Assembly: GCA_017934545.1 (NCBI GenBank)
Contig: JAGBJI010000007.1
Span: 1-64,000 of the forward strand
DNA: 64,000 nt
Reading direction: 5' to 3'
From: Bacteroidales bacterium
GTDB lineage: Bacteria; Bacteroidota; Bacteroidia; Bacteroidales; P3
Below are positions 1 to 15,512 of this stretch, piece by piece. The notes beneath the pieces were generated by a model. The model saw only the letters and a list, made by a program, of their open reading frames with translations. It was not told where the DNA came from and did not search any database. A program made the translations under genes and the position numbers. Each line of letters starts with the position of its first letter. Position 1 is the stretch's first letter.

Positions 1-1
1 T

Positions 2-130
2 CGACCAGAAGTAACAATCGTTTATTTACCACACGGACGAACCACCATCCACACAACTGAGATATATGCTGACGTGGTGATGGACAAGAAAGTGGATGCC
101 GTAAACCTGATGACAGGAATCTTTGGATAG
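2..130 (+). CDS. Tyrosine recombinase/integrase, C-terminal fragment
   Basis: An open frame enters from the left edge and stops at 128-130. Its 42 residues end in the pattern TIHTTEIYADVV followed by a short basic tail, which matches the box II region of phage-type integrases: a His before a TT-x-x-Y motif, with the nucleophile Tyr encoded at 65-67. Known role: strand cleavage and exchange during integration and excision. Only the end is visible, so completeness cannot be judged. The residues just before the motif (LPHGRTT) differ from the usual LGH-type box, and a lesion upstream is possible. Confidence 0.6.
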   Translation, partial: RPEVTIVYLPHGRTTIHTTEIYADVVMDKKVDAVNLMTGIFG

Positions 131-231
131 TCCTTGTGTTCAAAAAATGTTTGTGTTCAAATAAATCTGTGGAGTTATCTGAATACAGGCATTTTCGGTG
201 TTCAACAATATCTTTGATTAAAATGGGTGGC

Positions 232-858
232 ATGACAGCAGTAATATACGCTCGCGTTTCCAGTTCTGGGGAACGGCAAAGCACAGAACGACAGGTCAAG
301 GACTTATCGGACTATGCTTTGTATAAGCAGATGGATGTCCGAAAGGTATTTGAGGAGCATATCTCAGGCGCAAAGAAGAATGAAGAGCGTCCTGTGTTAT
401 GCGAAGCCATCGATTATTGCAAGGAACACTGCATTTCCACCCTTCTTGTCAGCGAGCTGTCAAGGATGGGTCGTAATGCGTTTGAGGTGCTTGCCTCTGT
501 CAAGGAACTGCTTGACTGTGGCATCAACCTCTATATCCAGAAGGAACAATTCAACTTGCTTGGGGATGATGGGAAGCCGTCACTTTTTGCCCCTGTCATG
601 TTGGCAACGCTCTCCACTTGTGCGCAGTTGGAGCGAGAGAATATAACCTTCCGCTTGCAGTCAGGCAGAAAGCAGTATATAGCCAAGGGCGGCAAACTGG
701 GTCGGAAGCCAGGTTCTACGAAATCTGCCGACCAAAAGAAAGAAGAATACAGGGATGCTATTTCCCTTTTGAAGAAGGGGTATGCCATCAGGGATGTGGC
801 AAAGTTGACGGGGAAAGGTATCAGCACCATCCAACGAGTAAAGAAAGAGTTTTGCTGA
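232..858 (+). CDS. Serine recombinase (resolvase/invertase family)
   Basis: A roughly 208-residue protein with the resolvase fold. The N-terminus VIYARVSSSGERQSTERQ carries the catalytic Ser and its neighbouring Arg, ELSRMGRN matches the conserved D/E-x-x-R-x-x-R segment, and the last ~35 residues form a Hin-like helix-turn-helix ending in STIQRVKKE. The frame extends upstream to a GTG at 136, but the ATG at 232 (or 223) begins exactly where the family fold starts, so the start is placed there. It lies 100 bp after a tyrosine recombinase; having both types next to each other is unusual and may reflect an inversion or resolution function within the element. Confidence 0.85.
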   Translation: MTAVIYARVSSSGERQSTERQVKDLSDYALYKQMDVRKVFEEHISGAKKNEERPVLCEAIDYCKEHCISTLLVSELSRMGRNAFEVLASVKELLDCGINLYIQKEQFNLLGDDGKPSLFAPVMLATLSTCAQLERENITFRLQSGRKQYIAKGGKLGRKPGSTKSADQKKEEYRDAISLLKKGYAIRDVAKLTGKGISTIQRVKKEFC

Positions 859-1291
859 AAATATCTCTTGCCAATCGTACCAATGTTTATCTGTTATCTG
901 ACAGGTAATCTTTGATACGAATTGGTTCAAGAAAATAGTGAAAAGAAAGGTGAAGGTGACGTTTTGACATAAAAATGAGGTAAAAATCGCCTTCTTCACC
1001 TTATTTAATACAAAGAAGACCCTCTATTTGGATTATTTTTAGTAACTTTGCGCCCATGCAATGTGCGCATAGCTGAACAAGCATGTACACACTTTGACAA
1101 ATGACCCAAATAACCCATAGGCAAAAGATATATAGAACTCCCTTGCAGTGTTGCATAAAGGTTTGGTCGCCTGTCGAGACACTGCTTGGGGGTTCTTTGT
1201 TAAAGAAAATAGATAAATGAAGAATACCGCTCTTATCCGTCATTCTATTGACAGAGCAGATTATTTAATGCAATTCTAAAGGAAATTTATT
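859..1291. other. Intergenic region with long leader of the cargo operon
   Basis: The 433 bp hold no gene. A 9-bp inverted repeat (947-955 with 994-1002) may end recombinase transcription. A -7 promoter box sits at 1043-1050, so the cargo operon would have a leader of about 230 nt. I found no known riboswitch in it. Confidence 0.4.
1043..1050 (+). promoter_or_regulatory. Bacteroidetes -7 box for the cargo operon
   Basis: TAACTTTG followed by C matches the Bacteroidetes sigma-ABfr -7 consensus TAnnTTTG. A TTTG at 1027-1030 is closer than the usual -33 spacing, so the upstream half is weak. No other good box was seen between this and the operon's end. Confidence 0.6.
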
Positions 1292-2215
1292 ATGACTATA
1301 ATTGCTATCATATACGCAGTAGCATGGCTTATTCTATTAGCCACTTATCTTTTCAAGCGTAAAGAAAGTACATTCAACTGGAGCGAAGCAGATGGTACGG
1401 AGAAATTCGTTCTCTTCCTCATTATCTTGTTCGCTCCTATTGTCGTTCTCTTTTTCCCATTTATGCTTTATTCCCAAACGAAAAGCAATAAGAAATCTCG
1501 CAAGGCGGCAGAAGATAGGGATAGTAAAGAACGTGAAGAACACGAATATCGTGCAAAAGCTTTGTCTGCAATACAGCAAGCGAAAGCACCCCCCGCGCAG
1601 GAAGCATCATCAGAATTCAAATCATTCTTAGCTTCTGCAAGGTCATCGTACTCTACGAATTTCTACGCCCACATGCAGAAGGAGGAAAATTATCCCATGA
1701 TTATGAAAATCCTGCATAAGCTATCATTACCCAAAGGTGCCAGTCTTCTTGTTGAGGAATGCCAGCAGCAAGGCATGGGCGATGAAAGCAAACTGTTTGT
1801 GGAAACTCCCGAAGGTACCTATGACTATAGTATTTGGGATTATATAAAAGTAGAAAACTCTGTGGAAGGAGCATGGAACGCATATCTGCTTTACAACCTC
1901 TGGCATGTGCTGCCGATGTTCTGGCACGCCCTCTATAATAGACGCTACTATCTATTCTTTCCAGAATTCACAGATTTCATTGAATACCACCATAATGGAG
2001 ACAAACAAGATTTGAGAAAAGCGATAAAGGAACATTTCGTATCTCCTGATGTTGTTGCAGCTGATGGTAAGTTTTACGTGTCATGCTGCTACTTTACGAA
2101 CTTCGGTGGGCTGATACAAGAAACCGTTGAAATAGCCATTGACAACGGCAAGGCTTCGTTCCATGTAATCGAACAGAAGGCTTTGGTTGAATACGATTGT
2201 GGTATAAGATTTTAA
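1292..2215 (+). CDS. Unknown two-TM membrane protein, first gene of cargo operon
   Basis: 307 residues, family not recognised. Residues 2-20 and about 39-60 are hydrophobic segments separated by a short polar stretch, so the protein is probably a two-pass inner-membrane protein. A charged, probably helical linker rich in Lys/Glu follows (about 65-100), then a ~200-residue soluble domain with many aromatic residues. It starts at an ATG about 240 nt after the predicted promoter, and the next gene begins 15 nt after its stop, so it opens the operon. Membrane anchoring here and at the tail-anchored fifth gene suggests the system works at or senses events at the membrane; that is inference. Confidence 0.7.
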   Translation: MTIIAIIYAVAWLILLATYLFKRKESTFNWSEADGTEKFVLFLIILFAPIVVLFFPFMLYSQTKSNKKSRKAAEDRDSKEREEHEYRAKALSAIQQAKAPPAQEASSEFKSFLASARSSYSTNFYAHMQKEENYPMIMKILHKLSLPKGASLLVEECQQQGMGDESKLFVETPEGTYDYSIWDYIKVENSVEGAWNAYLLYNLWHVLPMFWHALYNRRYYLFFPEFTDFIEYHHNGDKQDLRKAIKEHFVSPDVVAADGKFYVSCCYFTNFGGLIQETVEIAIDNGKASFHVIEQKALVEYDCGIRF

Positions 2216-2230
2216 TAAATTAATAATAAT

Positions 2231-3304
2231 ATGGGACTATTTGACTTTTTATTTGGCTCGAAGAAAAAAGAGCAAGAACGGCTTCGTCAGGAAGAAGAAG
2301 CACGTCGCCAGACATTAGAGCAAGAACGCATTGCGCGTGAAAGAGAGCGTCGGCTTGAAGAAAACCGCCGTAAGGAACAGGAGCGTCAAGCACGCCTGAA
2401 AGCAGAACGGGAACAAGCAGAATCCCTTCAGCCGTTCACTTTCAAATCGAACTGCCATCAGCGTTATGAAAATGGCACTCCAGTACAAGGATTACAAGAA
2501 TGTTTGCGTACCGTTTCCGTTGTCAAAAACACCAATGGGTGTCCTGGATATAGATTGCAGCCTGGTATCGGGTATATTGTCAAGATTTACAATGATGACC
2601 TTGGCAAACCGAATATGTCCGACAAACCCATGAAGGTTGTACGCAAGACAGATACTTCTGTTGAGCTTCGTGGTTTCCCCATCGAGGCGCAATCTCCCTT
2701 CGGATGGCAGGAGGTAGATTACAGCGACTATGGCTTTATCGTATATTTCAAGAACGGACAAGTGGAGAAGTGTGTCCTCCATATGTATGATAGAAATATC
2801 CGTCTTGAATATATGAAATCCGCGCAAGAGAATATCACCCCCAAAGTTGCTAACAACAGGCCATTTAACAACAATGTTTCTATTAGTGCTGTTGCACAAG
2901 GATTTACCTTCAATTTGAAGTTTTCCTCGATACAAGTTGTTAAACAGCCCTATAATGGCCAAGCACAGGAGATTAAGATTTCTCCTTCTGCTGAAGCCTA
3001 TATTGTAAGAAAAGAGTCTGATGGAGTTACAACCTTTGACATTAGCAATATCGCTGAATTAAAACAGAAAGGAATTCTCCAAACCAACCCATCTTTTAAT
3101 CCATCATTCTCTTATAATTCTGACCCACAAGGGAATGAATTTGCATCAGCTGAGGTAGGTAATTCGTTTGCGGCAATGACAAGTGGAAAGGAATACGTCT
3201 CTTTATTCCAGATAACTCGTCAAGGTGGAAAACTGGTATCTTTTATTATAAACAACCTACCCAACGAAGATGATTTCTATTATCTCATAGTCTTTAAGGA
3301 ATAG
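2231..3304 (+). CDS. Unknown protein with charged N-terminal coiled coil
   Basis: 357 residues, family not recognised. After a short hydrophobic MGLFDFLFG start, residues 10-68 are an almost uninterrupted Glu/Arg/Gln-rich helix, likely a coiled coil or single alpha-helix. A Cys-containing beta-rich region (about 70-200) and a second beta-rich domain follow. The N-terminal GLFDFLF segment is like those of small membrane-associated or phage-shock-type proteins, but this is too weak to name a family. It lies 15 nt after the first cargo gene and 4 nt before the DUF1848 gene, so co-translation is likely. Confidence 0.65.
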   Translation: MGLFDFLFGSKKKEQERLRQEEEARRQTLEQERIARERERRLEENRRKEQERQARLKAEREQAESLQPFTFKSNCHQRYENGTPVQGLQECLRTVSVVKNTNGCPGYRLQPGIGYIVKIYNDDLGKPNMSDKPMKVVRKTDTSVELRGFPIEAQSPFGWQEVDYSDYGFIVYFKNGQVEKCVLHMYDRNIRLEYMKSAQENITPKVANNRPFNNNVSISAVAQGFTFNLKFSSIQVVKQPYNGQAQEIKISPSAEAYIVRKESDGVTTFDISNIAELKQKGILQTNPSFNPSFSYNSDPQGNEFASAEVGNSFAAMTSGKEYVSLFQITRQGGKLVSFIINNLPNEDDFYYLIVFKE

Positions 3305-3308
3305 TAAT

Positions 3309-4373
3309 ATGGCATCTTGGGAACATACTGAAATAATGATTGATGGGAAGCCTGTGAAAGCACAGGCTCCCGTCATTGTGTCGGCAAGCAGAAGCACGGA
3401 TATTCCCGCCTTCTATGCCGACTGGTTCTTTGACCGCTTAGAGAAAGGATATTCTGCATGGACAAATCCTTTTAATGGTGTCAAATCGTATGTTTCCTAT
3501 GACCAAACTCGATTTATCGTTTTCTGGTCAAAGAATCCACGCCCCTTGTTACCATACCTATTCATTTTAAAGGAACGTAATATCAAGTGTTACGTTCAGT
3601 ACACCTTGAATGATTATGAACAGGAGAATTTGGAAAAAGTTCCTTCTCTTGCAAATCGTATTGAAACATTCAAGTTGCTTGTTGAACAATTGGGCAGGAG
3701 CGCAGTTATCTGGCGGTTTGACCCCATGATTCTGACGGATGACATAACAGTTGATGGCCTATTAGAAAAAGTTCAAAACATTGGAGACCAACTGAAGGAT
3801 TATACCGAGAAACTGGTATTTAGCTATGCGGATATAGCGATGTACAAGAAGGTAAAGCATAATCTTGAAGTTAGCGGTATTCCATATCACGAATGGGAAA
3901 CGGAGCAAATGGAGGAGCTCGCGGAAAAGCTTTCTGCCATGAACCGTGAACGTGGCTGGAATTTCCAACTGGCCACATGTGGTGAGAAGATTGACATAGC
4001 CAAGTACGGTATTCTTCATAATCGCTGCATTGATGGCGACCTTATAACTCGCCTTGCATGGGATGACAAAGAATTGATGGACTTCATGAAGGTAAAAATT
4101 GAGGAAGTTCCTGCCCCTACATTGTTTGGAGAATTAGAGTTGCCCAAAGGTGCAATACTCCTGCCAAATAACCGTTATTTTATTAGCACCCACAAGAAAG
4201 ACCCAGGACAACGGCAATTCTGTGAGTGCATGGCCTCAAAGGACATCGGTGAGTACAACACTTGCCCACATCTTTGCGAATACTGTTACGCCAATACAAC
4301 AAAGCAAATGGCAATAGAAAATTGGAAACGCCACCAACAAAATAAATTCTCAGACACAATCACTGGAAAATAA
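3309..4373 (+). CDS. DUF1848 family protein (C-terminal Cys cluster)
   Basis: 354 residues with strong DUF1848 hallmarks: an N-terminal VSASRSTDIPAFY strand-turn, the IVFWSKNP motif, an RFDP segment near the middle, and a C-terminal Cys cluster with spacing C-x-C then C-x3-C-x2-C (TCPHLCEYCYA). The Cys group probably binds a metal or iron-sulfur cluster, and the family is thought to be distantly related to radical-SAM proteins; its function is not established. It stands 4 nt after its upstream neighbour and 2 nt before the giant helicase gene, so it is tightly coupled to that enzyme. In this operon it could be a modifying or redox-sensing partner (inference). Confidence 0.85.
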   Translation: MASWEHTEIMIDGKPVKAQAPVIVSASRSTDIPAFYADWFFDRLEKGYSAWTNPFNGVKSYVSYDQTRFIVFWSKNPRPLLPYLFILKERNIKCYVQYTLNDYEQENLEKVPSLANRIETFKLLVEQLGRSAVIWRFDPMILTDDITVDGLLEKVQNIGDQLKDYTEKLVFSYADIAMYKKVKHNLEVSGIPYHEWETEQMEELAEKLSAMNRERGWNFQLATCGEKIDIAKYGILHNRCIDGDLITRLAWDDKELMDFMKVKIEEVPAPTLFGELELPKGAILLPNNRYFISTHKKDPGQRQFCECMASKDIGEYNTCPHLCEYCYANTTKQMAIENWKRHQQNKFSDTITGK

Positions 4374-4375
4374 AT

Positions 4376-7300
4376 ATGCCCTTCATACAAGCATTTAGAC
4401 AAAGAGGCGATATATCGTTTCAAGGCATGCGAAACACCGCACTATCTCTGCTCCCTTCCGACCCGATGGAGAGGGATAGATTATACAAGGACTTGAAACG
4501 AGGCACTGACATCTTGGACGATGATGACCATCTAAATATGTATCTTCACAGCTTTGGCAAAATGCACAAGGCTAAACTTGATACGGCCTTTAACTGTGTG
4601 CCTAATGCGGAAAACCTTTTTGCTTCTGACTTGGAGATATACGATTGGGGGTGTGGACAGGGTACGGCTTCAATATGCTTACTGGATTTCATCCGTGCCA
4701 AAAGGATAAACGCATCTAATATAAAATCTTTTTGTCTTATTGACCCCTCTTCTGCCGCTGTTCAAAGAGCAAAGAATGTCATACAGTGCTATGGCATATC
4801 TTCTGTTAATCAGATAGTAAAAGATTTCGACTCCTTAGTTGCTGATGATTTCCCAAAATCTAATGCAAGGAAACTTCACCTTTTTAGCAACATTCTGGAT
4901 GTTGATGCCTTTGACCTGGCTCATTTTATCCAGCTTTTCCAGCAGGTCTTTGGAGGAGAAAACTACTTTGTTTGTGTTGGCCCTTATTATAGCAATAACA
5001 GACGTGTTGATGATTTTATTGCTGCAACCGACCCTGACACGATGTTCGCCACTGACAACAGGGAGAGAGGCGAATGGCTGAATGAATGGACTATTTCATT
5101 ACGGGTGTTCGCTAAAGACTTCCACCGCATTGAGTCTGTTCAGGACATCAGGAAACGCATTGAAGAATCACACAAGAAAGCACAATTCTTTGCAGGGTAT
5201 ATCCTGGATGCTATTGCAGAAGAATACAAGGGAACGGCTATAGAGAATGAAGCGGAAAGCCTATATAATGCGCTGTCCGCTTTCGATGTTAAATCCAACA
5301 TTCCGCTTGATGATAACGCTGAATGTGATTCAAAGCTGGCCGTCCTTGCGAATATCATATCAAGAGGATTGCCGACGAAAGCACCTATCCTTCTTGAAAA
5401 TATTTTCTCTGACATTTACCACTTATCTCAAAAGCCCGAGGAAGGAGCTGTAATTGATTACCACTCTACCCATACTGTCAAAGCAAAGGAAATTCATGAA
5501 GCGTTGCATGTGATTGACCCTCGCTTTAACGTGGATTCATACAACGGTGATATGTTAGGAAGTTCCTTTGAAAAATCATTTGTTGAGAATTTCCTTAATG
5601 GGTCTGAATGTGAATACCTCATTCAATTGTTGGAACCACAACGCTTGCTTTCTTCTATCGTCACCATTCCAGACAGGAAGTTTAGCAAAGACCAACGAGT
5701 GGACTTCGCTTTTGAAATCCCTTATGGCGATACGAAAACAGGCTTTATTCTGGAAATGGATGGACAACCTTACCATTCTAACATCTTCCAGCGTCTTCGA
5801 GACGAACGCCGCGACAGAATGGCTTCACAAGGTGGATGGGATACTTATAGAATAACACAGCTTCAGAATAATAATTTCTTGGATAGCTGGCAAACAGAGG
5901 CATCCTCTAACAGATTTCTCTCTATCATTAAAAACAACCACGCCAAACCGCTAACAGGTTCATGGAACAATACGTTACAAGCTGTTCTCGCGCCTTTGGC
6001 TGTCGCTCGAATTGAGCGTATGTTAATAGAGGCCATGGTGTCTGGTGCCCTGAATGTATCTTCTGAAGAATGGAACATCGCTGTGGTTGAAAGAGACGTA
6101 CCCTGCGCCGCCTTAGCAATACAGGATTTAACTGACAAGTATTCACATATTTGTCAGTTGGCTGGCTCGTCCGACCATCTACCCAAAATAAACTTGACGA
6201 TTGTCTCTACGGACGAGTTCAAATCTTCTCCGCTACATTTGGGGTACAAGCCAACTACCGAAATGCCACAATCGCATTTTGACATCTGTCTCGATGTTTC
6301 AATGTTACTGCGTGACAACATTGATGCTTTACCGCTAAGTGTCGATGCGGATGTATTCTATATCATACGCACCTCACACTACAAGAAACGGGAACGGAGG
6401 GTTTGTGCTGCTGAGAACATTGTTTATCCGGCATTTGTAAAAAAGGATAGTACTGGAAACTATGTTAATATCAAGGAACGAGAAGATTTGCTCACATACT
6501 TCTTACAGGAGATTTTCAGGAAAGCATCCTTCCGTCCAGGGCAGTTGCCTATCCTAAGCCATTCTTTGGCTGACAAAACCACGATAGGTTTGCTTCCTAC
6601 TGGTGGAGGTAAGTCTCTGACATACCAATTGTCTTGCATCCTACAACCAGGAGTCTCAATCATTGTCGATCCTCTTGTTTCTCTCATGGTTGACCAAGTG
6701 AGAGGACTGCGAGATATTCGCATAGACTCTTGTGAAGCAGTGCATAGTGGACTCGCCACCGATGAAAAGAGGAAGAAATTGGCATTGCTCCAGCAGGGGG
6801 CATCTCTCTTCATGCTCCTTTCGCCAGAAAGGTTTATGATGGAAAACTTCCGCGATAGCCTAATTACAATGACAGAGAAAAACCATGTATATTTCTCTTA
6901 TGGTGTCATCGATGAAGTGCATTGCGTATCTGAGTGGGGACACGATTTCCGAACGTCATATCTGCATCTTGGACGCAATATGATTAACTACATGAAGACG
7001 AAATCTAAGCGTCCCTTGTCTGTAATGGGTCTCACAGCAACGGCATCATTTGACGTTCTTGCTGATGTGGAAAGGGAGCTGACTTTAGGCGGAAATCTTT
7101 CTATTGATAGCGAAACCATCGTTCGCCCCGAAAACGATACTCGCCCAGAATTATCATACCGCATTTACAAAGTCAACCCATCGTTTGACGAATTAAAAGA
7201 CCCTCTGGAGCAATATAAGTTAAGGTGCGAAAGCGATTGGGATTTGAAAGATGTTGTGGCTGAAACGAAGAAAAGAACGTTGGTTGATATGTTTGCAACT

Positions 7301-9583
7301 ATCCCTTCTGATATTGAAGCCGTAAACGACGCTGAAGCTCCTTGCTATATAGAGCACTTCAATGCTGAGGATTTCTATTCACCTGACAGCGAATATAAAT
7401 ATCAAAATGCGGGTATTCTCTTTTGTCCTCATGCCAGGGGAACATTTGGCGTTCTAACAAACGTATGGAATACGAGACCTGGCATCTCAAATCATTTGAT
7501 TGAGAATGTTGGCCAGTTGAATGTCGGCACATTTGTTGGTGGTGATCGCCCATCGGGTGACATGAAACGTTTTAATGAAAACGAGCAGAACTTGATGGTG
7601 GCCACTAAAGCATTTGGCATGGGTATAGACAAACCGAATGTCAGATATACCATCAACTTCAATCATCCATCTTCCATAGAAAGCTTTGTACAAGAAGCTG
7701 GTCGTGGCGGTCGAGACCGAAAACACGCCATCTCTTATATATTGTTCGACAACTCACAATATATCCATCTTACTGCCGATAAAGTTAATGACATTCGGTA
7801 TTATATGGGGCAAGAGAATGACCCACAATGGCTTCACCACTATATTCACCGATTTGTTCTTTTGGAGGATTTCCCTGAATTGTGTAGAGCAAACAATGCG
7901 ACAGAGGAACAGATAACATCGCTGCTGAATATCATTCATAATCACGGCTTTTTGGAAAATGTAGATAAGAACATTGTTCTCTATTTCCACAACAAATCTT
8001 TCAAAGGGTTGTATAAGGAAAAGGTTATTCTATCAGAATTGACTGACCGCATTATGAATGTCAGCCCAAGTTACATTACCGAAGTTCAAGGAAGACTGAG
8101 GGAAGTAACTGGAAATACTGATGTGTGCCTGAAAGTGGATACCAGAAGAAACGCCGTCAAAATTTTCTCTGAGGAAGAAAACCAAGACCAATATGGCTAT
8201 ATCTTTTTAGAAAATCTTCGAGCCACTTACAATTACATCAATTTCGACAGGGCCACATGTGAATATATCTCTAACTGCCTTGTAAATATTTTACAGACAT
8301 ATTCTGACCATTCTGCTGCTGGATTATTGCAGCCTTTGGATGGTGAGAATAACATCACAGAAGGTATATACCAAGCGATGGAGCACGCCGACTCTAACGG
8401 TTATGTGTATGTTACCGTCACTTGGGAGAATCAAATCAAACAAGACCCTGAGGAGTTTGAGCGTGAGATTAAGCGTCAAATAACCAAGATAGCACAAAAC
8501 CAGGGTTGGAATGACATTGATGAAAATCATTATGGCAGGCTGAATCTAAGTAAAATCAATGATTTTGATGAGCTTCTTGAAAGAATTTCAAAATGCTCTG
8601 GCGATTTGAGATGGTTACAATATCACGCTGCCGAGAATCTTTACAAAGGGCTGAAAAAGGCCTTCTGCATGAAACGCGACAAAGATGATACCGATAAAGC
8701 CATTTATCGTATGTGCTGCATTGGTCTTGTAGAGGATGTTACCATTGACTATCTCGCTCAAACCTATGAGCTGAAAGTGAAGAAACAAACCGATGACGAA
8801 TTTAAGCAGCACATGCTTGACTTCTTCCGCAAGTATTATTCATTGGAGCAGGCTCAAAGGAAAGTGGATGAAATAGATAGCCAAAGAGGAAGAAACTACT
8901 TGGATAAATGTCTCGGTTATCTCACAGGGTTTGTTTATTCAAGCCTTGAAAAGAAACGTTATCGTGCCATTGAAGATATGCGTATCGCATGTGAAGATGG
9001 CTATGCTCACAGGCAAGAAGATAATAATGACGAGTGGCTTAAAGAGTTCATACATCTGTATTTCAACTCTAAATACGCCCGTACTGGATACCAAGTAAAC
9101 GGAAGTGACTATTCACTAACAGAGGATACCGATCAAGAGGGACGTGATGATTTCTACATTGTAAAGAAATACATTGAGGTCATCCCACTTGACAGCAGTT
9201 CTGGTAGCGAAATAGACAATGTTAAGCACCTGTATGGCGCAACATTACTGAACCTCAGAGCGCATCCAGATAACGCTGCCTTGCAGTTGCTGTTAGCTTA
9301 TTGTATCGCCTTTCAAGGGCCTGGTACAAACGAAACTCTTAAAGCAAATGCTTATAACGGCTATGTGGATGGCTTCATTTCAATGTATGAGAAATCAGGT
9401 CAATCCGTTTGGTCTTTTGTAAATGAGTTTAACACCTACCTTAAAGCAAAAGCACATCCTGACTATGATGTAAACTCCTTAATAAAGGATGGGCAGGATG
9501 CCCTTATGCTTTACATTCACGGGAAAGAGTTGGATACGATTGTAAACAAATACCTTGCCAATAACTCTGAAGATATAATATAA
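4376..9583 (+). CDS. Methyltransferase-like / PD-(D/E)XK nuclease / RecQ-type helicase fusion
   Basis: A 1735-residue multidomain enzyme. Residues ~60-250 resemble a class I methyltransferase fold, with the SAM-loop-like D90-WGCGQG. Around 430-500 is a DUF559/Vsr-like PD-(D/E)XK nuclease: D443, then E460-M-D462, then H467 and a DxxR helix ending in a W-x-x-Y-R-I strand. Residues ~725-1130 are a RecQ-family SF2 helicase: Walker A PTGGGKS (K746), DEVH box 846-849 followed by the RecQ-type CVSEWGHDF, motif III LTATA (886-890), and motif VI QEAGRGGRD (1106-1114). The last ~600 residues are helical and not recognised. RecQ alone is ~600 residues. I see no methyltransferase NPPY/DPPY motif, so the first domain may bind SAM or nucleic acid without methylating. 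Likely role: DNA recognition, unwinding and cleavage in defence (inference). Confidence 0.85.
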   Translation: MPFIQAFRQRGDISFQGMRNTALSLLPSDPMERDRLYKDLKRGTDILDDDDHLNMYLHSFGKMHKAKLDTAFNCVPNAENLFASDLEIYDWGCGQGTASICLLDFIRAKRINASNIKSFCLIDPSSAAVQRAKNVIQCYGISSVNQIVKDFDSLVADDFPKSNARKLHLFSNILDVDAFDLAHFIQLFQQVFGGENYFVCVGPYYSNNRRVDDFIAATDPDTMFATDNRERGEWLNEWTISLRVFAKDFHRIESVQDIRKRIEESHKKAQFFAGYILDAIAEEYKGTAIENEAESLYNALSAFDVKSNIPLDDNAECDSKLAVLANIISRGLPTKAPILLENIFSDIYHLSQKPEEGAVIDYHSTHTVKAKEIHEALHVIDPRFNVDSYNGDMLGSSFEKSFVENFLNGSECEYLIQLLEPQRLLSSIVTIPDRKFSKDQRVDFAFEIPYGDTKTGFILEMDGQPYHSNIFQRLRDERRDRMASQGGWDTYRITQLQNNNFLDSWQTEASSNRFLSIIKNNHAKPLTGSWNNTLQAVLAPLAVARIERMLIEAMVSGALNVSSEEWNIAVVERDVPCAALAIQDLTDKYSHICQLAGSSDHLPKINLTIVSTDEFKSSPLHLGYKPTTEMPQSHFDICLDVSMLLRDNIDALPLSVDADVFYIIRTSHYKKRERRVCAAENIVYPAFVKKDSTGNYVNIKEREDLLTYFLQEIFRKASFRPGQLPILSHSLADKTTIGLLPTGGGKSLTYQLSCILQPGVSIIVDPLVSLMVDQVRGLRDIRIDSCEAVHSGLATDEKRKKLALLQQGASLFMLLSPERFMMENFRDSLITMTEKNHVYFSYGVIDEVHCVSEWGHDFRTSYLHLGRNMINYMKTKSKRPLSVMGLTATASFDVLADVERELTLGGNLSIDSETIVRPENDTRPELSYRIYKVNPSFDELKDPLEQYKLRCESDWDLKDVVAETKKRTLVDMFATIPSDIEAVNDAEAPCYIEHFNAEDFYSPDSEYKYQNAGILFCPHARGTFGVLTNVWNTRPGISNHLIENVGQLNVGTFVGGDRPSGDMKRFNENEQNLMVATKAFGMGIDKPNVRYTINFNHPSSIESFVQEAGRGGRDRKHAISYILFDNSQYIHLTADKVNDIRYYMGQENDPQWLHHYIHRFVLLEDFPELCRANNATEEQITSLLNIIHNHGFLENVDKNIVLYFHNKSFKGLYKEKVILSELTDRIMNVSPSYITEVQGRLREVTGNTDVCLKVDTRRNAVKIFSEEENQDQYGYIFLENLRATYNYINFDRATCEYISNCLVNILQTYSDHSAAGLLQPLDGENNITEGIYQAMEHADSNGYVYVTVTWENQIKQDPEEFEREIKRQITKIAQNQGWNDIDENHYGRLNLSKINDFDELLERISKCSGDLRWLQYHAAENLYKGLKKAFCMKRDKDDTDKAIYRMCCIGLVEDVTIDYLAQTYELKVKKQTDDEFKQHMLDFFRKYYSLEQAQRKVDEIDSQRGRNYLDKCLGYLTGFVYSSLEKKRYRAIEDMRIACEDGYAHRQEDNNDEWLKEFIHLYFNSKYARTGYQVNGSDYSLTEDTDQEGRDDFYIVKKYIEVIPLDSSSGSEIDNVKHLYGATLLNLRAHPDNAALQLLLAYCIAFQGPGTNETLKANAYNGYVDGFISMYEKSGQSVWSFVNEFNTYLKAKAHPDYDVNSLIKDGQDALMLYIHGKELDTIVNKYLANNSEDII

Positions 9584-9605
9584 ATATCGAATAATTTATC
9601 AAAAT

Positions 9606-10436
9606 ATGCCATACGACATCAATACCGCCCTACAGAGGCTTGAACAAAATCTGAGTGACCTGACTTCTGCCAGAAAGCAGGTCGAAGACACCGTAAAAGC
9701 AAGCAGCGAACTTCAAAAAGTTGTTGCTGAGTATGTATCATCAATCGAAACGCTGTGTGCTCACTTAAAAAGACGGGATGCCGACTTAGGTAATCGTGAG
9801 AGTTCTCTTTCACATGAAATCGAAAACATGATTTCTCAGCTAACTACGTCGAATACACAAATTGTTTCGGCATTCAAGAAATCAGTAGAAGATACGACTG
9901 CTGACTTTAGCAATAAAACGAATGCTGAAATCACCAAGTTTGTTGAGCAGAACAACAAACTTGCGGAGCGTGTCCAAGAATTGAACAAACTCCGTGAAGA
10001 GATTAAGAATTCTACTGGTGAGATAAAGGCTATCAAAGAGTCATCTATCCAAATCTCAAAAGATTTGAAAGAATCTCAGGAAGGACAGGATGTCCTACTT
10101 GATGATATTAAGACAAAAGTTGCCTCAGTTGACACTGCTACGCAAAATATAATCAGTTCGCTTGAAAGTCTTAACCAGAGTGTAACCTCGGGCTTTGATA
10201 ATCTTTCTACAAGAACCGATGCGATAGCTAATGATATTGCCCAGCTCACAAGCCTTTGTCAATCAATTAAAAATGCAACTACTGCAATAGGTACTTCTAT
10301 AAAGACTTCCACATCGCAGATTGAAAACAAAATAAACGAAGCCAAAGATATTGTTTCCAAAGCGACAAACATTAACCGATGGATTCTGATTGCAGGGATT
10401 ATACTTATGGCTATTCTTCAATTTGTCATTAAGTAA
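9606..10436 (+). CDS. Long coiled-coil protein with C-terminal membrane anchor
   Basis: 276 residues. Residues ~5-250 are almost entirely polar heptad-like helix (Leu/Ile/Val spaced among Lys, Glu, Ser, Thr, Asn). The last 20 residues (WILIAGIILMAILQFVIK) form one transmembrane helix, so it would be tail-anchored with the coil in the cytoplasm. No enzymatic motif. It sits 22 nt after the helicase gene and 9 nt before the protease gene. Layout resembles signalling or tethering partners of proteases, or MCP/syntaxin-like rods, without belonging to a family I can name. It could be the protease's substrate or membrane platform (inference). Confidence 0.7.
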   Translation: MPYDINTALQRLEQNLSDLTSARKQVEDTVKASSELQKVVAEYVSSIETLCAHLKRRDADLGNRESSLSHEIENMISQLTTSNTQIVSAFKKSVEDTTADFSNKTNAEITKFVEQNNKLAERVQELNKLREEIKNSTGEIKAIKESSIQISKDLKESQEGQDVLLDDIKTKVASVDTATQNIISSLESLNQSVTSGFDNLSTRTDAIANDIAQLTSLCQSIKNATTAIGTSIKTSTSQIENKINEAKDIVSKATNINRWILIAGIILMAILQFVIK

Positions 10437-10445
10437 CAATAAAAC

Positions 10446-11021
10446 ATGAAAAATTATGTTTTCCCAACTGTAGATGATTTGAACGACGGGTGCGGCGTAC
10501 TTGTAGGAAACCTATTTGTCACCGCAGCTCACGTTGTTCAAGAACACGACTTTCGTCTATGGGTAGATGGAAAAGAAGTTCGTCTGAAAAAGGATGATTC
10601 TATACTGTTCAAATACAAACAGGCAGAAGACGGTGCGGACATTGCTGTGTTTCGTTTAGAAGGCTTCAATAGCCCTCTTGAATTTGACACATCTACGCCA
10701 CAAACGGATATGCTTCTTGACAGTATTAGTTATGAGCACATTGTTGAAGGTAGCCCAAACACAGATAACATCTTCCTTGATGAATCAAGGGATTGTTACA
10801 AGTTGATTGAATGTAATGCTACAATAGAAGAATTAGCCGGGAACTTCTATCAATGCAAAACTTCAGTTATCTTGAAACCAGGAAGCAGTGGTAGTCCTGT
10901 GTTTCACAATGGAAAAGTGTTTGGCATTCTTCATGGCGGCCAATTAGGAACAAATCATTGTGTGTTTCAATCAAGTAGTTCTATCCTGACATTATTGCGC
11001 CAGGCGGAAACTCTGAAATAG
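10446..11021 (+). CDS. Trypsin-like serine protease (S1 fold), last cargo gene
   Basis: 191 residues with a complete chymotrypsin-like triad: H29 in FVTAAHVV, D65 in ADIAVF, S148 in GSSGSPVF, followed by a GILHGG strand. There is no signal peptide or PDZ domain, so it is a cytoplasmic protease, unlike DegP/HtrA proteins. It ends the cargo operon 9 nt after the tail-anchored coiled-coil gene. Trypsin-like peptidases recur as effectors in prokaryotic conflict systems, where activation cleaves a partner or host proteins; here a role as the killing or signalling effector is inference from context. Confidence 0.85.
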   Translation: MKNYVFPTVDDLNDGCGVLVGNLFVTAAHVVQEHDFRLWVDGKEVRLKKDDSILFKYKQAEDGADIAVFRLEGFNSPLEFDTSTPQTDMLLDSISYEHIVEGSPNTDNIFLDESRDCYKLIECNATIEELAGNFYQCKTSVILKPGSSGSPVFHNGKVFGILHGGQLGTNHCVFQSSSSILTLLRQAETLK

Positions 11022-11137
11022 ATTTCAAATTTCTTGTTGTTTCACTTTTCCACGTCATGTCTTCTATTCCTTATTCTGATGTCCAATTTCTTTACAACCA
11101 CATTCTTGTGAATGCTTCAATCATCGACATAAACTTA

Positions 11138-11668
11138 TTATAACACAAACAACTTTAACACCCCTAAGACAATCTCCGCGATTATGATACCGAAGCTGAT
11201 GAAGAATACGGTGCATAGTCGTATGAATGTCTTCCTTCCGAAATAGACGCCATCGCCTTTGCTGATAATCTCATAGCACCTTTTCTCGTTCTGGTCAAGC
11301 GCATCACCAATCTTTTTGCGATGCTGATTGAGCATTCCTTCTTCCTTTTCTGAATAGTCTGAATACTTGGCCTGTAACTGTGTGATGGTTTCATCATCCA
11401 GTTTGTTAGTGAAGACTACCTTCCGACTGTCAAGAATAGCCTTAACAATGGCATTCACGGAATTGTCAGTACATTTGCTGGCAGCAATCACTGCGGTAAC
11501 TATTTTCTGCAAGTCATCTTTGGCTTGTACGAGTTGATTGACGATGCCTTTCATCGTCTCCACGTCTGTAGTGACTTGGCTTAACTGTTCTGCCAGATTG
11601 TCTTTCTGTTCGGCTATCTCTTCCTGCATGTTGATATTCTCAACAAGGTTGTCATATTTATTCTTCAT
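11138..11668 (-). CDS. Coiled-coil protein with C-terminal TM, downstream of relaxase
   Basis: 176 residues, family not recognised. The first ~65 residues are a Glu/Gln-rich coiled coil, the middle is polar, and the last ~28 residues (from FIRLCTVFF to LKLFVL) are a hydrophobic membrane segment. It starts 12 nt after the relaxase stop on the same strand, so it belongs to the mobilization operon and might anchor the relaxosome at the membrane or coupling protein (inference). It converges with the cargo operon; about 116 bp separate the two stops. Confidence 0.65.
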   Translation of the reverse strand: MKNKYDNLVENINMQEEIAEQKDNLAEQLSQVTTDVETMKGIVNQLVQAKDDLQKIVTAVIAASKCTDNSVNAIVKAILDSRKVVFTNKLDDETITQLQAKYSDYSEKEEGMLNQHRKKIGDALDQNEKRCYEIISKGDGVYFGRKTFIRLCTVFFISFGIIIAEIVLGVLKLFVL

Positions 11669-11680
11669 ATCGATTTGTGT

Positions 11681-12916
11681 TTAACGTCCATATCCTTTAC
11701 TTCTCTTGATGGGCTTGCATAGCCACTTGGCATGTTGGGCACAACGTCTTGCCCATTCACGCTCATCCTCGTCCTTGTCCTTGCCCCAGTCAGAGGAAGT
11801 ACCCCCACCGCCACCACTGGATTCTGCAACGGTAGTGGCTGCATCGACGTAGTTCATGAACAGTAGCATAGCAACGTTCAATACATTCTCAACAGGTACA
11901 GATTCATCAGGTGCGGTGGTGTTTGCTTCCATAGCCTTGTATGCTTCCAATGGCATTGCGATAGAATAATTCTTGCCATCAACAGACAATATCTTCCTGA
12001 AAACAGATGGTGCTTCCGTCTTGGGTTGGGCAGCGTTCTGACGCTCTGCATAGCGTTCTGTGAGAGGCTTTCTTGCAGCGGTCTGGGAGTTGCCCAAGGT
12101 AGTACTGGGTTTCACAACTGTTGGAGCAACTGGACGAAGTTTCTTCCATGCGGCTTCAAGTTTGGATGCTGTCAAGTCTCGACCTTTACCCAACTTGGAT
12201 GACTTGAAACGGGAGCTGCCACGAAGTACGGTGTACCCATGCAGCACTCCTTCTTTGTCACGTTGCTCATGGACTTTGTAACCTCGGCTTTCAAGTCCGT
12301 GCTTATAACTGTCCCAATCATATCTTGACATTCCACGGAGGATGTCGTAACAGGCATCTGTTATCTCCTTCAAGTGAGCCTCGTGAATGTCCTCGGGCAA
12401 CTCCCAACCACGTTCTACATTGATGGCATGGGCAGCCTTGGTTGCACTTTCTCCGATGAAGGAGTCATTCATGAGGTTGCCGTCAAGGTCAATGCGGTTG
12501 ATGAGGATGTGAAGGTGCGGGATGCCGGACTTCGCATCAAAGTGAAGACAGGCGAAAATCTGCGCTCTGTCCAGATTGAACTTGCCAACTCCCTTCTTCT
12601 TGCCGTCCTTGGTCTGAACTTCTTTCTTGAACTCTTCAAGAAACCGCTGCGCATATTGATACCAGTCATTGAGCGTCCAACCCTTTGTCTCTTCAAGAGA
12701 TGGGGAAACCTCCATCCGAAGGGTCGGCTTGGTGACGGGTTTACGTCTGAATTTCGGTTCATACTTCTGGTGGATGGTTTCCATCGCTCCCCACATGGCG
12801 AGAGGAGTAAGTCCCTCGTCAAGATTGCGTGTCAGCACGATGTCGGCACGGTTATGTTTGGTGGCATAGTTCGTCATGGCTGAGCCATGCGATATGGGCT
12901 TGGCTTTTGCTATCAT
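11681..12916 (-). CDS. Relaxase / mobilization nuclease (HUH type)
   Basis: 411 residues. The N-terminal ~260 residues form a relaxase domain: candidate metal-binding His residues at H125 and in the HLH motif H134-L-H136 (GIPHLHILINR). The N-terminal SHGSAMTNYATK segment resembles the strand before the catalytic Tyr, with Y17 a candidate nucleophile. After ~265 comes a low-complexity, proline- and alanine-rich linker, then a Ser/Gly-rich stretch and basic tail. It nicks oriT and pilots DNA during mobilization. The MobC-like gene ends 4 nt upstream. Family: Bacteroides-type mobilization proteins. Confidence 0.85.
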   Translation of the reverse strand: MIAKAKPISHGSAMTNYATKHNRADIVLTRNLDEGLTPLAMWGAMETIHQKYEPKFRRKPVTKPTLRMEVSPSLEETKGWTLNDWYQYAQRFLEEFKKEVQTKDGKKKGVGKFNLDRAQIFACLHFDAKSGIPHLHILINRIDLDGNLMNDSFIGESATKAAHAINVERGWELPEDIHEAHLKEITDACYDILRGMSRYDWDSYKHGLESRGYKVHEQRDKEGVLHGYTVLRGSSRFKSSKLGKGRDLTASKLEAAWKKLRPVAPTVVKPSTTLGNSQTAARKPLTERYAERQNAAQPKTEAPSVFRKILSVDGKNYSIAMPLEAYKAMEANTTAPDESVPVENVLNVAMLLFMNYVDAATTVAESSGGGGGTSSDWGKDKDEDEREWARRCAQHAKWLCKPIKRSKGYGR

Positions 12917-12920
12917 ACCA

Positions 12921-13283
12921 TTATCTTCTAAACATTCCTTCTATCTCTACAAGGCGGCGGATAAGGCTGTTCACGCCCTCAATCCACTGCTTCATAAACT
13001 GCTCGTTGCGGAAGTATTTCTTACGTTGTTCCTGGGTAGTGCCGTGAAGGGCATTCTTTATCAGGACAAGCTCACCTCGGGCAGCTTTCAGCGACATAAG
13101 GGCATCAGCCTCTTTGTCGCTCATCATCACCTTTGGCTCCTGCCCAAGGGATGTGTCATGGATATACTGGCTCTTCTTCAGCCCACAGGCTGTAGCCATC
13201 CTTACAATCTTCTCGTTCTCGTCGGGCGTATAGCACACGGTAATGCGTGGATTGCGCCCTTTGCGTTCTATGTTCTGTACCAT
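12921..13283 (-). CDS. MobC-like plasmid mobilization accessory protein
   Basis: 120 residues. The N-terminus (RNPRITVCYTPDENEKI) fits a ribbon-helix-helix strand and helix, and the GLKKSQYI segment and helical remainder match MobC-type relaxosome proteins, which bind oriT and help the relaxase nick. It is the first gene of the mobilization operon, 4 nt before the relaxase. The 182-bp gap upstream is the likely oriT. Family assignment rests on pattern and context. Confidence 0.75.
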   Translation of the reverse strand: MVQNIERKGRNPRITVCYTPDENEKIVRMATACGLKKSQYIHDTSLGQEPKVMMSDKEADALMSLKAARGELVLIKNALHGTTQEQRKKYFRNEQFMKQWIEGVNSLIRRLVEIEGMFRR

Positions 13284-13465
13284 TGTCAGATGGTTTTAAC
13301 TGTTGGTTATAACTGGGCTTGGTCAACCCAATGCGAGCCTGCGAGTATTGCAAGAGGTCAAACGGTCTGGCAAGTAGCGAAGCGGATTGTCGGACATTGA
13401 CACTTCTTGTTTAGAGAGTACGAAAATCCAGGCTCCCTTCGGGGGTGTCCCAAAGCATTGGGTAA
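13284..13465. other. Candidate oriT region upstream of the mobilization genes
   Basis: A 182-bp gap directly upstream of the MobC-like gene. It contains short inverted repeats such as CCCAA-AGCA-TTGGG (13449-13462) and TGGG-9 nt-CCCA near 13311. In Bacteroides mobilizable elements oriT normally lies just upstream of mob genes. No nic site could be recognised. Confidence 0.35.
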
Positions 13466-14389
13466 TTATCCGGCATCGTCGGGTGTCGTTTCGGCAGCGA
13501 CGATGGCGGTAGCATCTGGAGGGGTATCACCAGGCGGTTCAGAGGACGGCTGTGCCTCGTTCTCTGGCTCGTTCCCTGCCCTGTCATAGAGATAGGCGGC
13601 ATCTGTCAAGGTGATGGATGGGGACGTGTTGTTGAGCGCAAGCGAAAAAAGGTTTTCTTCATTCGGTGTGGTCGGCTCGACACCATCATTGAATGGTTTC
13701 CTTTCCCTATCGTTACCATCATTTGAATTGTCATGGCTAACGGGGTCGGAATGCTTAAAGGTGTACTCATCCCTTTGTTCGATGGTTTGCCCATCTGATT
13801 GATGTGCGGTTTGCTCCAAATCGCTATCGGTTGAAGAAAGGGATAAGGAATTGCTCTCATCGGCGTAATTGCCATTGTTGACATCGGCTACCGTTCTGTT
13901 GGCAACAACACCATTGGCAATTGCTCCATCGGTGGCGGTTCCATTGCCGACATTACAAGTGGCAGCACTCTGGCTCTTGTGGTTTGCCTTGATGCGTGGC
14001 TCTACTTGGGGATTACGTGAGTAATGCGTATTGCGGATTTCCTGACCACCCACATACCAACTGGCGATACAATGGACTGTGAAGACGGTGGTACGGAAGT
14101 TAGGCACGGATGATACAAGTCCCACCTCATGAAACATGTCAACCATCTTGGAGGCAGTCTTGCGATTGCACTTCCAGAGCTGGGCAAGTTCCACTTCCGA
14201 AATGGCAAACTGCCCTGGGGTCAGGTCAACTGAATACTCCTTTTTCTCATAGTGCGTCGGCTCCTTCACTGACATTTGCAAGAAGGTAGCAAAGCACTTC
14301 ATGCGGTCGAATCCCTGTGGGTAGTTGAACAGGAAATCCAACTGTCGGTCTGATAGAAACAGACCATAAGATAAATCATCTTTGTACAT
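13466..14389 (-). CDS. Winged-helix-like DNA-binding protein (possible replication/regulatory protein)
   Basis: 307 residues. Residues ~1-110 look like a helix-turn-helix domain: FAISEVELAQLWKCNRKTASKMVDMFHEVGLV fits a wHTH recognition helix as in replication-initiator or GntR-like folds. The rest (from ~140) is Asn/Ser/Thr- and acid-rich low-complexity sequence with no domain. Similar proteins accompany mob genes on Bacteroides mobilizable elements, but I cannot assign a role. It ends 182 bp before the MobC-like gene and starts 67 bp after the small gene at 14457. Confidence 0.55.
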   Translation of the reverse strand: MYKDDLSYGLFLSDRQLDFLFNYPQGFDRMKCFATFLQMSVKEPTHYEKKEYSVDLTPGQFAISEVELAQLWKCNRKTASKMVDMFHEVGLVSSVPNFRTTVFTVHCIASWYVGGQEIRNTHYSRNPQVEPRIKANHKSQSAATCNVGNGTATDGAIANGVVANRTVADVNNGNYADESNSLSLSSTDSDLEQTAHQSDGQTIEQRDEYTFKHSDPVSHDNSNDGNDRERKPFNDGVEPTTPNEENLFSLALNNTSPSITLTDAAYLYDRAGNEPENEAQPSSEPPGDTPPDATAIVAAETTPDDAG

Positions 14390-14456
14390 GGTACGTTGTC
14401 TTTAATTGTTTACGGGTGCGGACACCCACTAAGTTCATTTCTCATTCTTGGTTTAC

Positions 14457-14765
14457 TCATCTGTGGAAACCCCTGCTGCGAGTCTCTGGCAAGTCATCGG
14501 CAATGCTGATAAGGGCTTCGTTCAACTTCTGCTCCTCCGCTTTGTTTAGCAGATGGATGGCATCGATGTTGATGGCGAGTGCGGCGGCTTCGCGTCCGTA
14601 CCTGATAGCCTCTTGGTCATCATCAATCGCCTTGTTCGCTCCTATTGCGTCGATGTAGGCATTCACCTTGTCGCGCATGGTGAAATAGCCCAAGCCTGTC
14701 TTTGCCCAGTTAGCGGCTGAGTTAACGGCACTCTCTTTGAGTGCGGATAGTTCCTGTTCCTTCAT
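14457..14765 (-). CDS. Small helical protein of unknown function
   Basis: 102 residues, not recognised; mostly helical and rich in Ala, Glu and Asp, with a basic tail (RSRGFHR). Its ATG overlaps the stop of the excisionase-like gene by one base (TGATG), so the two are translationally coupled. A role in element regulation or excision with its partner is inference. Confidence 0.6.
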   Translation of the reverse strand: MKEQELSALKESAVNSAANWAKTGLGYFTMRDKVNAYIDAIGANKAIDDDQEAIRYGREAAALAINIDAIHLLNKAEEQKLNEALISIADDLPETRSRGFHR

Positions 14766-15103
14766 CAGTGCTTCTTGCTAAGGGTTTGCATGTGAATACG
14801 GGCAGCATCGTCAATCTCTTCTTGGGTATAGACTCGGTTCCTCCGAATCCATGAAAGAATGTCTGCTTTCTCGAAGTAGATCATCTTTCCATTGGGTCGG
14901 TAGAAAGGAATACTCTGCTCGCACGTCATCTTGTAAAGGGAACTGCGAGCCATGCCCATGAACTTGGCGGCTTCCTCGACGGTTAATACTTCCTTGCTTG
15001 AATCAAGGATGTCTTCCAGAACGTCAACGCGCTTCTGGAGTTCTGCAACCTGCTTGTGCAGTTGGGTGTCCTTCTGGACGGGGTTCTGTTGTGTCATTTT
15101 CAA
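14765..15103 (-). CDS. Excisionase-like MerR/HTH_17 DNA-binding protein
   Basis: 112 residues. An N-terminal coiled coil (residues ~15-40) is followed by LTVEEAAKFMGMARSSLYKMTCEQSIPFYRPNGKMIYFEKADILSWI, the typical helix-turn-helix, wing and final helix of the excisionase/HTH_17 family. These proteins bend DNA near attachment sites and bias recombinases toward excision, or regulate such operons. It is the outermost gene at the right side of the element, where such genes commonly sit. Confidence 0.85.
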   Translation of the reverse strand: MKMTQQNPVQKDTQLHKQVAELQKRVDVLEDILDSSKEVLTVEEAAKFMGMARSSLYKMTCEQSIPFYRPNGKMIYFEKADILSWIRRNRVYTQEEIDDAARIHMQTLSKKH

Positions 15104-15482
15104 CTTACTTTTTTGTTTTACCTATTTATATTATACACATTTGTCACTCCATGACTGCCACATGTGCTGACCAGATAACAGAGGGTGTTTGTCGGTCAAA
15201 AGAGGAATGCGGCAGTGCTAAGTTAGTCCTATAGGATGGGCTGGAAAAATAATCGGCACAGAAAAGTTCGATTTTTGACTGTTCTTAACTGGCGAGTATG
15301 ATTTTGCAGCAATAATCATACTAATAAACCGTTCGGGATGCTTGTTTTCGTTGGGGATGTTACCATCCGAAACAAGCATGTCAGAAGCACCACTTTGTGC
15401 CACTTCTTGCCACCAAAACCGAGGGTCGGCTTGCCCGATTAAAAAAGTTGCAACATATCGCATATATCTCAATTATTTTTCG
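15104..15482. other. Right-end junction region of the mobile element
   Basis: About 380 bp without a gene. It holds the excisionase-like gene's upstream region and a hairpin (separate entry at 15338-15379). The rpe promoter follows. The element/chromosome boundary must lie here, but no direct repeat of the left end can be tested because the left end is outside. Confidence 0.4.
15338..15379. repeat. Inverted repeat near the element's right end
   Basis: ATGCTTGTTTTCG (15338-15350) pairs with CGAAACAAGCAT (15368-15379) with one bulged T, leaving a 17-nt loop. No T-run follows on either strand, so it is not a simple terminator; it could be a recombinase or excisionase arm site or a transfer-related structure. 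Confidence 0.45.
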
Positions 15483-15490
15483 TAACTTTG
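15483..15490 (+). promoter_or_regulatory. Bacteroidetes -7 box for rpe
   Basis: TAACTTTG at 15483-15490 followed by CAG. Transcription would start near 15497, giving a very short leader and favouring the GTG at 15513 as rpe start. Confidence 0.65.
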
Positions 15491-15512
15491 CAGAAAATTT
15501 TTGAATAAAAAA

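Follow-up and report, generated by a model that had tools for sequence, protein, structure and literature searches.

The described systems closest to the locus reported here are ShosTA, PsyrTA and RqlHI, in which a catalytic domain lies on or beside a RecQ helicase and is accompanied by a dedicated partner gene. According to passages of PMC9122126, a DprA-phosphoribosyltransferase (PRTase) pair has anti-phage activity, and passages of PMC4670107 describe a PRTase toxin that is restrained by a DprA-like partner. We compared with such systems a run of six genes, P1 to P6, found in a 64,000-nt stretch of DNA from a Bacteroidales bacterium (the window: GCA_017934545.1, contig JAGBJI010000007.1, positions 1-64,000, forward strand). 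P4 encodes a RecQ-like helicase joined to a methyltransferase (MTase) domain and a nuclease, and its neighbors P3 and P5 encode a DUF1848 protein and a predicted tail-anchored protein. Judged by sequence comparison, P3, P4 and P5 alone are conserved among the six genes, and P4-P5 is a near-universal core. We put at about even odds (roughly 0.5) the reading that P3-P4-P5 is a mobile anti-virus or anti-plasmid cassette, composed of a RecQ-like helicase-nuclease, a tail-anchored partner and an exchangeable MTase/DUF1848 front end.

The core is defined by the gene that follows RecQ. We counted a locus as testable when its RecQ gene reached the C-terminal part and enough sequence lay after it, and we scored the next gene as tail anchored when it was on the same strand, within 120 nt, and had a single hydrophobic segment at its end. 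Such a gene directly followed RecQ in 64 of 68 testable loci, whereas 14 of the 769 remaining genes of these loci fit the description; the four loci without it are L025, L045, L060 and L067. The partner was present whether the RecQ protein carried the MTase domain (34 of 36 loci) or lacked it (30 of 32). The tail-anchored proteins of the two classes align with one another as profiles (probability 99.1, E 1.4e-18), a kind of score that coiled coil can inflate. In P5 itself, the single hydrophobic segment detected by hydropathy begins at residue 257 of 276. Besides Bacteroidota, we found the core on one E. coli and one Klebsiella plasmid (one of each was examined; both have the same gene order and a 163-residue tail-anchored protein), on two plasmids of Rhodothermota, and in one record each labeled Actinomycetota and gammaproteobacteria. 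The RecQ/tail-anchored order is likewise the same on the Rhodothermota plasmids and on one Haliscomenobacter plasmid.

P4 consists of an MTase domain (about residues 1-262), an MTES_1575/PD-(D/E)XK insert (about 400-520), a RecQ core (about 705-1130) and a conserved C-terminal part (about 1195-1735). Its RecQ-type DEAD (721-896) and Helicase_C (1063-1113) segments both score above the Pfam cutoffs, and the Walker A lysine K746 is invariant in 19 aligned homologues. P4 scores 236 bits where the RecQ equivalog cutoff is 640, and we therefore call it RecQ-like rather than a RecQ orthologue. Residues 438-495 match the MTES_1575 restriction endonuclease (REase) family (PF18741) at E 7e-4, under the cutoff, and the D...ExD core expected of a PD-(D/E)XK nuclease (D443, E460, D462) is invariant in 19 homologues. 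The nuclease domain was scored absent in 18 of 47 MTase-RecQ relatives (e.g., L073, L079, L081-L084, L086-L088, L092-L095, L097-L099), and where such relatives were aligned the insert itself is missing. Hence, the helicase and the tail-anchored protein appear to be the constant parts, and the nuclease is common but dispensable.

At the N terminus of P4, residues 84-191 match Methyltransf_31 at E 9e-6, just under the curated Pfam cutoff. The domain has a predicted class I methyltransferase fold with a conserved S-adenosylmethionine (SAM)-type motif, DWGCGQG. Its best structural matches are METTL17 and Rsm22, which are small-subunit assembly factors; unlike them, the P4 domain is fused to a nuclease-helicase, and a profile search of PDB sequences returned only generic methyltransferases, weakly (E 0.04-0.1). 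Among the Pfam matches listed for P4 there was no Rsm22 family, no target-recognition domain and no DNA-MTase family.

The MTase domain is in turn tied to P3. P3 is a DUF1848 protein (PF08902, E 3.8e-89) whose CxxxCxxC motif (C319, C323, C326), as expected of radical SAM proteins, lies at the C-terminal end and is invariant in 20 of 20 sequences. A DUF1848 gene occurs within three genes of RecQ in 40 of 47 RecQ loci with the MTase domain (a set that includes the window and in which L003 and L044 are the same contig), versus 0 of 44 loci without the domain, 12 of which had no more than about 1.5 kb of flanking sequence to inspect, and one of which (L027) is cut inside the gene. In a quick tree of RecQ domains (83 rows), the MTase-bearing rows fall in two supported clades; these linkage counts therefore represent one or two acquisitions. 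Open-access PubMed Central (PMC) literature searched for DUF1848 named it nowhere.

Four of the seven loci that lack DUF1848 (L075, L081, L084, L087) have an AlkB gene in its place, directly in front of the MTase-RecQ gene. The encoded protein has E values of 1.7e-38 against ALKBH3 and 4.6e-33 against ALKBH2. We had considered the roughly 204-residue protein of these four loci as a remote DUF1848; it gave no alignment (hhalign probability 0.1) and is AlkB. Two further loci, L073 (repeated as L166) and L079, have AlkB in addition to DUF1848, for six distinct AlkB loci overall, in some flavobacteria and relatives. When 1,908 genes of 185 loci were searched with an AlkB profile (E up to 0.01), every hit lay directly before the MTase-RecQ gene or its DUF1848. 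DUF1848, AlkB or both thus accompany 44 of the 47 MTase-RecQ loci. The remaining three loci without DUF1848 are L038, whose contig begins within the gene; L003, a short locus whose longer version (L116) has DUF1848 three genes on; and L100. On L100, a contig from the viral collection, a truncated DUF1848 of about the last 110 residues only is readable at about 9663-9998, and P4 and P5 are open. A clear exception stands outside the 47-locus set: L174 has an MTase-RecQ fusion, the nuclease and the tail-anchored gene, with neither DUF1848 nor AlkB in 17 kb. Neither of these two main patterns, RecQ with its tail-anchored partner or the MTase domain with DUF1848 or AlkB as companion, had been recognized in the original prediction.

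The association with DUF1848 extends beyond RecQ. In the host family, the MTase domain occurs at 11 places in 10 of 190 genomes, and DUF1848 is nearby at 10 of the 11 (the exception is L117). In the host order, 19 of 393 genomes carry the domain at 21 loci (counted after split rows were joined; two are shared with the family set), and DUF1848 is within four genes in 15 of them; three of the others (L173, L175, L176) start at the contig start and three (L169, L174, L182) do not. Any DUF1848 at all was found in just 20 of 99 genomes of the order. Among these family and order loci, only the window, L116, L121, L122, L166 and L174 have RecQ fusions. Other copies of the domain are standalone or are fused to UvrD-like helicases, to a superfamily 1 (SF1) helicase with PIN, to Sel1 repeats or to leucine-rich repeats (LRRs), and one operon combines the MTase-domain gene with separate genes for a UvrD-like protein and an ADP-ribosyltransferase. 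In L171 (898 residues, with LRRs) and in L074, a single open reading frame (ORF) encodes both DUF1848 and the MTase domain.

Several individual loci show further arrangements. L178 (3293-8674), L177 and L183 carry a four-gene operon of DUF1848, a gene of about 380 residues, a gene of about 560 residues and an MTase-domain gene of about 510 residues; in L178 the second gene is UvrD-like and the third has a 2CompART ADP-ribosyltransferase domain. L173, L175 and L176 look like cut copies of this operon. A second set is present in the host genome, on contig C14 (L113, 6932-9411): DUF1848, a 291-residue MTase and an overlapping 186-residue tail-anchored gene, without RecQ. In L022 (5087-9970) and L026 (5090-9970), a protein of about 1628 residues stands between DUF1848 and P4; that of L022 has NERD and SF1-helicase matches and a weak C-terminal methyltransferase match. 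L037 (7017-20684) holds the core locus and a second, MTase-UvrD gene, flanked by two related opposite-strand genes of 413 and 408 residues that are possibly transposases.

An enterobacterial sister form carries a different front end. The E. coli plasmid locus L124 (5743-11887) consists of a DprA gene, a RecQ gene and a tail-anchored gene, beside replication genes. The DprA matches ShosA at E 7e-68, and the RecQ protein has an N-terminal HAD-like part, a ShosT match (E 1.5e-7), which we take to be a PRTase, and REase and RecQ parts. Because this plasmid bears a ShosT/DprA front end, the same core carries two unlike enzyme-plus-partner pairs. Sets of the L124 type occur in 7 of 5,426 E. coli genomes, two of which have an insertion sequence inside the set. 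With the E. coli RecQ protein as query, 30 phage records matched; in the 15 listed, the match is limited to the helicase region, 22-23% of the query.

P4 has many relatives, patchily distributed among host-related genomes. Its residues 1-690 have 723 database relatives; identity in the 120 listed ranges from 61 to 97%, in nearly every case across the whole query. Scanning named genomes confirmed 577 stretches, from which the 78 best loci were taken. The plasmid collection held P4 relatives in 12 records and the viral collection (IMG/VR) one locus on one contig; phage records contained no P4 match at E 1e-30. Of 200 host-related genomes, 18 matched P4, its own genome included, and some of these (e.g., G004, G009) matched through the MTase domain only. 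When the DNA of P1-P3 was compared with plasmid records, we found a single match, covering 5% of the query, inside a DUF1848 gene.

The neighborhoods of these loci are rich in defense genes. We took 110 random proteins from the 540 flank proteins of 70 loci and, as a control, the 104 proteins of nine randomly placed stretches in seven genomes of the order, which were all that qualified. At E 1e-20, the flank proteins matched 170 PADLOC families (25 of which are listed) versus 7 for the control, a comparison that gives a direction and not a rate because families rather than proteins were counted and type I specificity models are redundant. The 7 control families include a type II restriction pair, the ShosA/PsyrA models, which would hit ordinary DprA too, and mad3, matched in four proteins. 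Neighbors with names include PglZ and BrxL (L079), a type I methylase (L073), DrmA (L102) and a DruE-like protein beside L121.

The original prediction had found no named system that matched the gene set, and our comparisons with Pfam, PADLOC and NCBIfam agree: no named defense system that we examined fits the genes of the window. Searches of open-access PMC articles returned no description of this gene set, and the word "RecQ" is absent from the available portions of PMC13092281 and PMC12458937. The window shares with ShosTA, PsyrTA and RqlHI the general plan outlined above, and the enterobacterial P4 relative has ShosT- and ShosA-like parts. However, the window has an MTase domain and DUF1848 in their place, no PRTase or DprA match is listed for its proteins, and a tail-anchored protein belongs to its core. 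The RecQ part of P4 matches DpdF of the Dpd system (PADLOC E 1.9e-66; NCBIfam 145 bits), but the NCBIfam cutoff for DpdF is 550 bits, the sole other Dpd model among the matches listed for P1-P6 is DpdJ, hit by P4 in a helicase motif (E 0.004), and no DpdA-DpdE model is among them (for P5, 25 of 32 weak PADLOC matches).

Several further named systems likewise do not fit. For BREX, no PglZ, BrxC or PglX is listed for P1-P6, and P4 matches BrxHI through the helicase motif only (E 6e-7); the PglZ and BrxL genes beside L079 belong to a neighboring system. Of DISARM components (DrmA, DrmB, DrmC), just DrmA is matched, by the P4 helicase C-terminal motif (E 8e-4). For Druantia, P4 matches the DruE helicase motif only (E 1.7e-3) and P5 matches DruC in its coiled coil (E 8e-4). 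We rejected Zorya, suggested by P5, since only stretch 331-580 of the 699 residues of ZorA is matched (E 3e-10), which we took as coiled coil, and no ZorB is listed. Lamassu was likewise rejected: P5 matches an internal coiled-coil stretch of LmuB only (E 1.7e-6), and there is no SMC ATPase among the six genes. Lamassu and reverse transcriptase (RT)-protease systems do have a trypsin-like protease weakly similar to P6, but no SMC or reverse transcriptase gene is among the six and P6 is not conserved with the core. Mokosh- and Gabija-like systems also join a helicase to a nuclease or second effector, and relatives of the MTase domain form fusions with helicases of Mko-like and GajB-like type; theirs are SF1 helicases, whereas that of the window is RecQ-like with an MTES_1575 nuclease. 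AlkB/ALKBH2-3 enzymes, encoded directly before MTase-RecQ or its DUF1848 in six distinct loci, are absent from the window, where DUF1848 holds that place.

The six genes form a tight operon (Table 1), as had been proposed: each of the six ORFs was found on the + strand, and the spaces between them (15, 4, 2, 22 and 9 nt) stay within the predicted 2-22 nt. Pfam bore out the domain calls for P3, P4 and P6, and hydropathy the two predicted membrane proteins.

Table 1. Genes of the P1-P6 operon in the window
Gene	Position	Strand	Features
P1	1292-2215	+	ORF; two N-terminal hydrophobic segments; C-terminal domain ending CGIRF; lineage-specific accessory, membership uncertain
P2	2231-3304	+	ORF; charged N-terminal stretch and uncharacterized domain; occasional accessory
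P3	3309-4373	+	DUF1848, radical-SAM-like, CxxxCxxC near C terminus; partner of P4 MTase domain
P4	4376-9583	+	1735 residues; MTase-like/MTES_1575 nuclease/RecQ fusion
P5	9606-10436	+	276 residues; coiled-coil-like, one C-terminal hydrophobic segment; core partner of RecQ
P6	10446-11021	+	Trypsin-like serine protease (H29, S148), without hydrophobic leader; rare accessory

Across genomes, the six genes did not co-occur as one unit. P1 has no Pfam family above cutoff and has homologues in 3 of 295 genomes, its own included; beside the core, we found only a partial, domain-level relative at the end of a 966-residue protein downstream of P5 in L033, and another P1 copy (L185), in a different genome, has no core gene in its visible surroundings. 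P2 has no hydrophobic segment, and Pfam, PADLOC, NCBIfam and PHROGs list no family for it. It occurs in 4 of 295 genomes, its own included (the three others hold internal stop codons), and in seven other RecQ loci: directly before DUF1848 in L035, L049 and L094, as a weak relative in L032, as short relatives after the tail-anchored gene in L062 and L066, and in L084. P6 scores above cutoff as trypsin-like (PF00089, E 4e-7; PF13365, E 1e-6), weakly matches the LmuA and RT-protease models of PADLOC, and has the serine protease SplA as its nearest solved sequence (E 1e-4). It has no strongly hydrophobic segment. Its single other copy, the only close relative found, lies directly behind P5 in L032 and conserves H29 and S148. 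We therefore rejected the six genes as a conserved unit and the protease as a general effector, and P1, P2 and P6 are, on this distribution, apparent add-ons of this lineage.

The call of a mobilizable element stood. The - strand immediately downstream encodes a relaxase (over the Pfam Relaxase cutoff; 116 of 400 bits for MbpB) and a NikA/MbpA-like protein, and a serine recombinase related to Mpi invertases is encoded upstream of P1 at 136-858. Base 1 of the window is the first base of its contig, and the left end of the element is therefore missing from view. We inspected the largest repeats of window positions 1-16000, drawn from at least 60 direct families and from 83 inverted pairs, and could read none as element ends. 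Directly behind the relaxase gene, positions 11138-11668 (-) encode a second small protein of coiled-coil-like character, 176 residues long, whose C-terminal hydrophobic segment starts at residue 153; a scan of 102 loci found no homologue of it. The sequence TAACTTTG at 1043-1050, some 240 nt ahead of P1, resembles the -7 promoter element of Bacteroidota, and a comparable stretch (15465-15491) lies before the ORF at 15501.

What might such a cassette do? From its context, a function in defense or in conflict between elements is likely: the neighborhoods are defense-rich, and the front end is swapped, as happens in conflict systems. The architecture, the linkages and the front-end exchange emerge from comparison of sequences; the chemistry is a further step. 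AlkB 2/3 enzymes take methyl groups off the pairing face of A and C, and for this reason the AlkB exchange is the strongest hint to that chemistry. The predicted tail-anchored P5 would hold the complex at the membrane, the RecQ part would open invading or replicating DNA, and the nuclease, where present, would cut the opened DNA. The MTase domain would methylate exposed bases and so create a toxic or blocking lesion, and DUF1848, which is radical-SAM-like, or AlkB would remove or resolve the mark on the cell's own nucleic acid. Such an antidote may be likened to the restraint of PRTase toxins by DprA-like proteins. That the MTase marks and DUF1848 or AlkB reverses is possible. About as tentative is the full proposal of a new mode of immunity, in which a membrane-tethered RecQ nuclease would write methyl lesions with a METTL17-like domain while DUF1848 or AlkB, as the dedicated eraser, would shield the host.

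The same parts could be assembled otherwise. Perhaps the MTase domain and DUF1848 (or AlkB) build a hypermodified host base, and the nuclease-RecQ-P5 machinery attacks DNA without it? The tight MTase-DUF1848 pairing, the union of helicase and conserved nuclease residues (D443/E460/D462) in one protein, and the resemblance of the RecQ part to DpdF of a modification-based system are all consistent with self-marking restriction of this sort. We nevertheless regard it as unlikely, as the MTase domain is also found with LRR, Sel1 and ADP-ribosyltransferase partners and alone, 18 of 47 MTase-RecQ members score no nuclease, and neither a target-recognition domain nor a DNA-MTase family is listed for P4. 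Somewhat less probable again is an RNA- or ribosome-linked abortive system, in which the METTL17/Rsm22-like domain and DUF1848 would, upon infection, bind or modify structured RNA or the small ribosomal subunit and the helicase-nuclease with P5 would execute.

The genes might instead maintain a mobile element, through replication, recombination or transfer, rather than confer immunity. Relaxase and recombinase genes adjoin them in the window, and relatives sit on the 12 plasmid records. Co-occurrence with conjugation functions, which the original prediction had raised against a defense role, was scarce: among 102 loci searched with the window proteins, a relaxase relative occurred in 2 and an MbpA relative in none, a search by which distant transfer genes would be missed. 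With defense families abundant around the relatives and front ends swapped as in conflict systems, a maintenance role seems improbable. Least probable of all, and in our estimate very unlikely, is the single six-gene system first proposed, with the P6 protease and two membrane proteins as effectors. The tight spacing of all six genes, the position of P6 and its L032 relative directly behind P5, and the weak match of P6 to protease-bearing Lamassu and RT models fit that proposal, but beside the core we found P6 in just one further locus, a partial P1 relative in one, and P2 in seven. Hence, the proposal of a candidate defense system survives in its defense-rich setting but not as one conserved six-gene system with a protease effector.

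We return to the P3-P4-P5 cassette with its exchangeable front end. DUF1848 pairs with one MTase domain over five kinds of fusion partner (RecQ, UvrD-like, SF1-PIN, Sel1 and LRR), and together with its replacement by AlkB this points to a testable role. The RecQ and tail-anchored core would be a widespread, unnamed one on which toxin-antitoxin-like pairs are exchanged. If the writer-eraser reading is true, DUF1848-MTase would be a portable toxin-antidote module adopted by many helicases, nucleases and repeat proteins, DUF1848 would gain its first function, as a radical-SAM eraser, and alkylation repair would be joined to phage defense.

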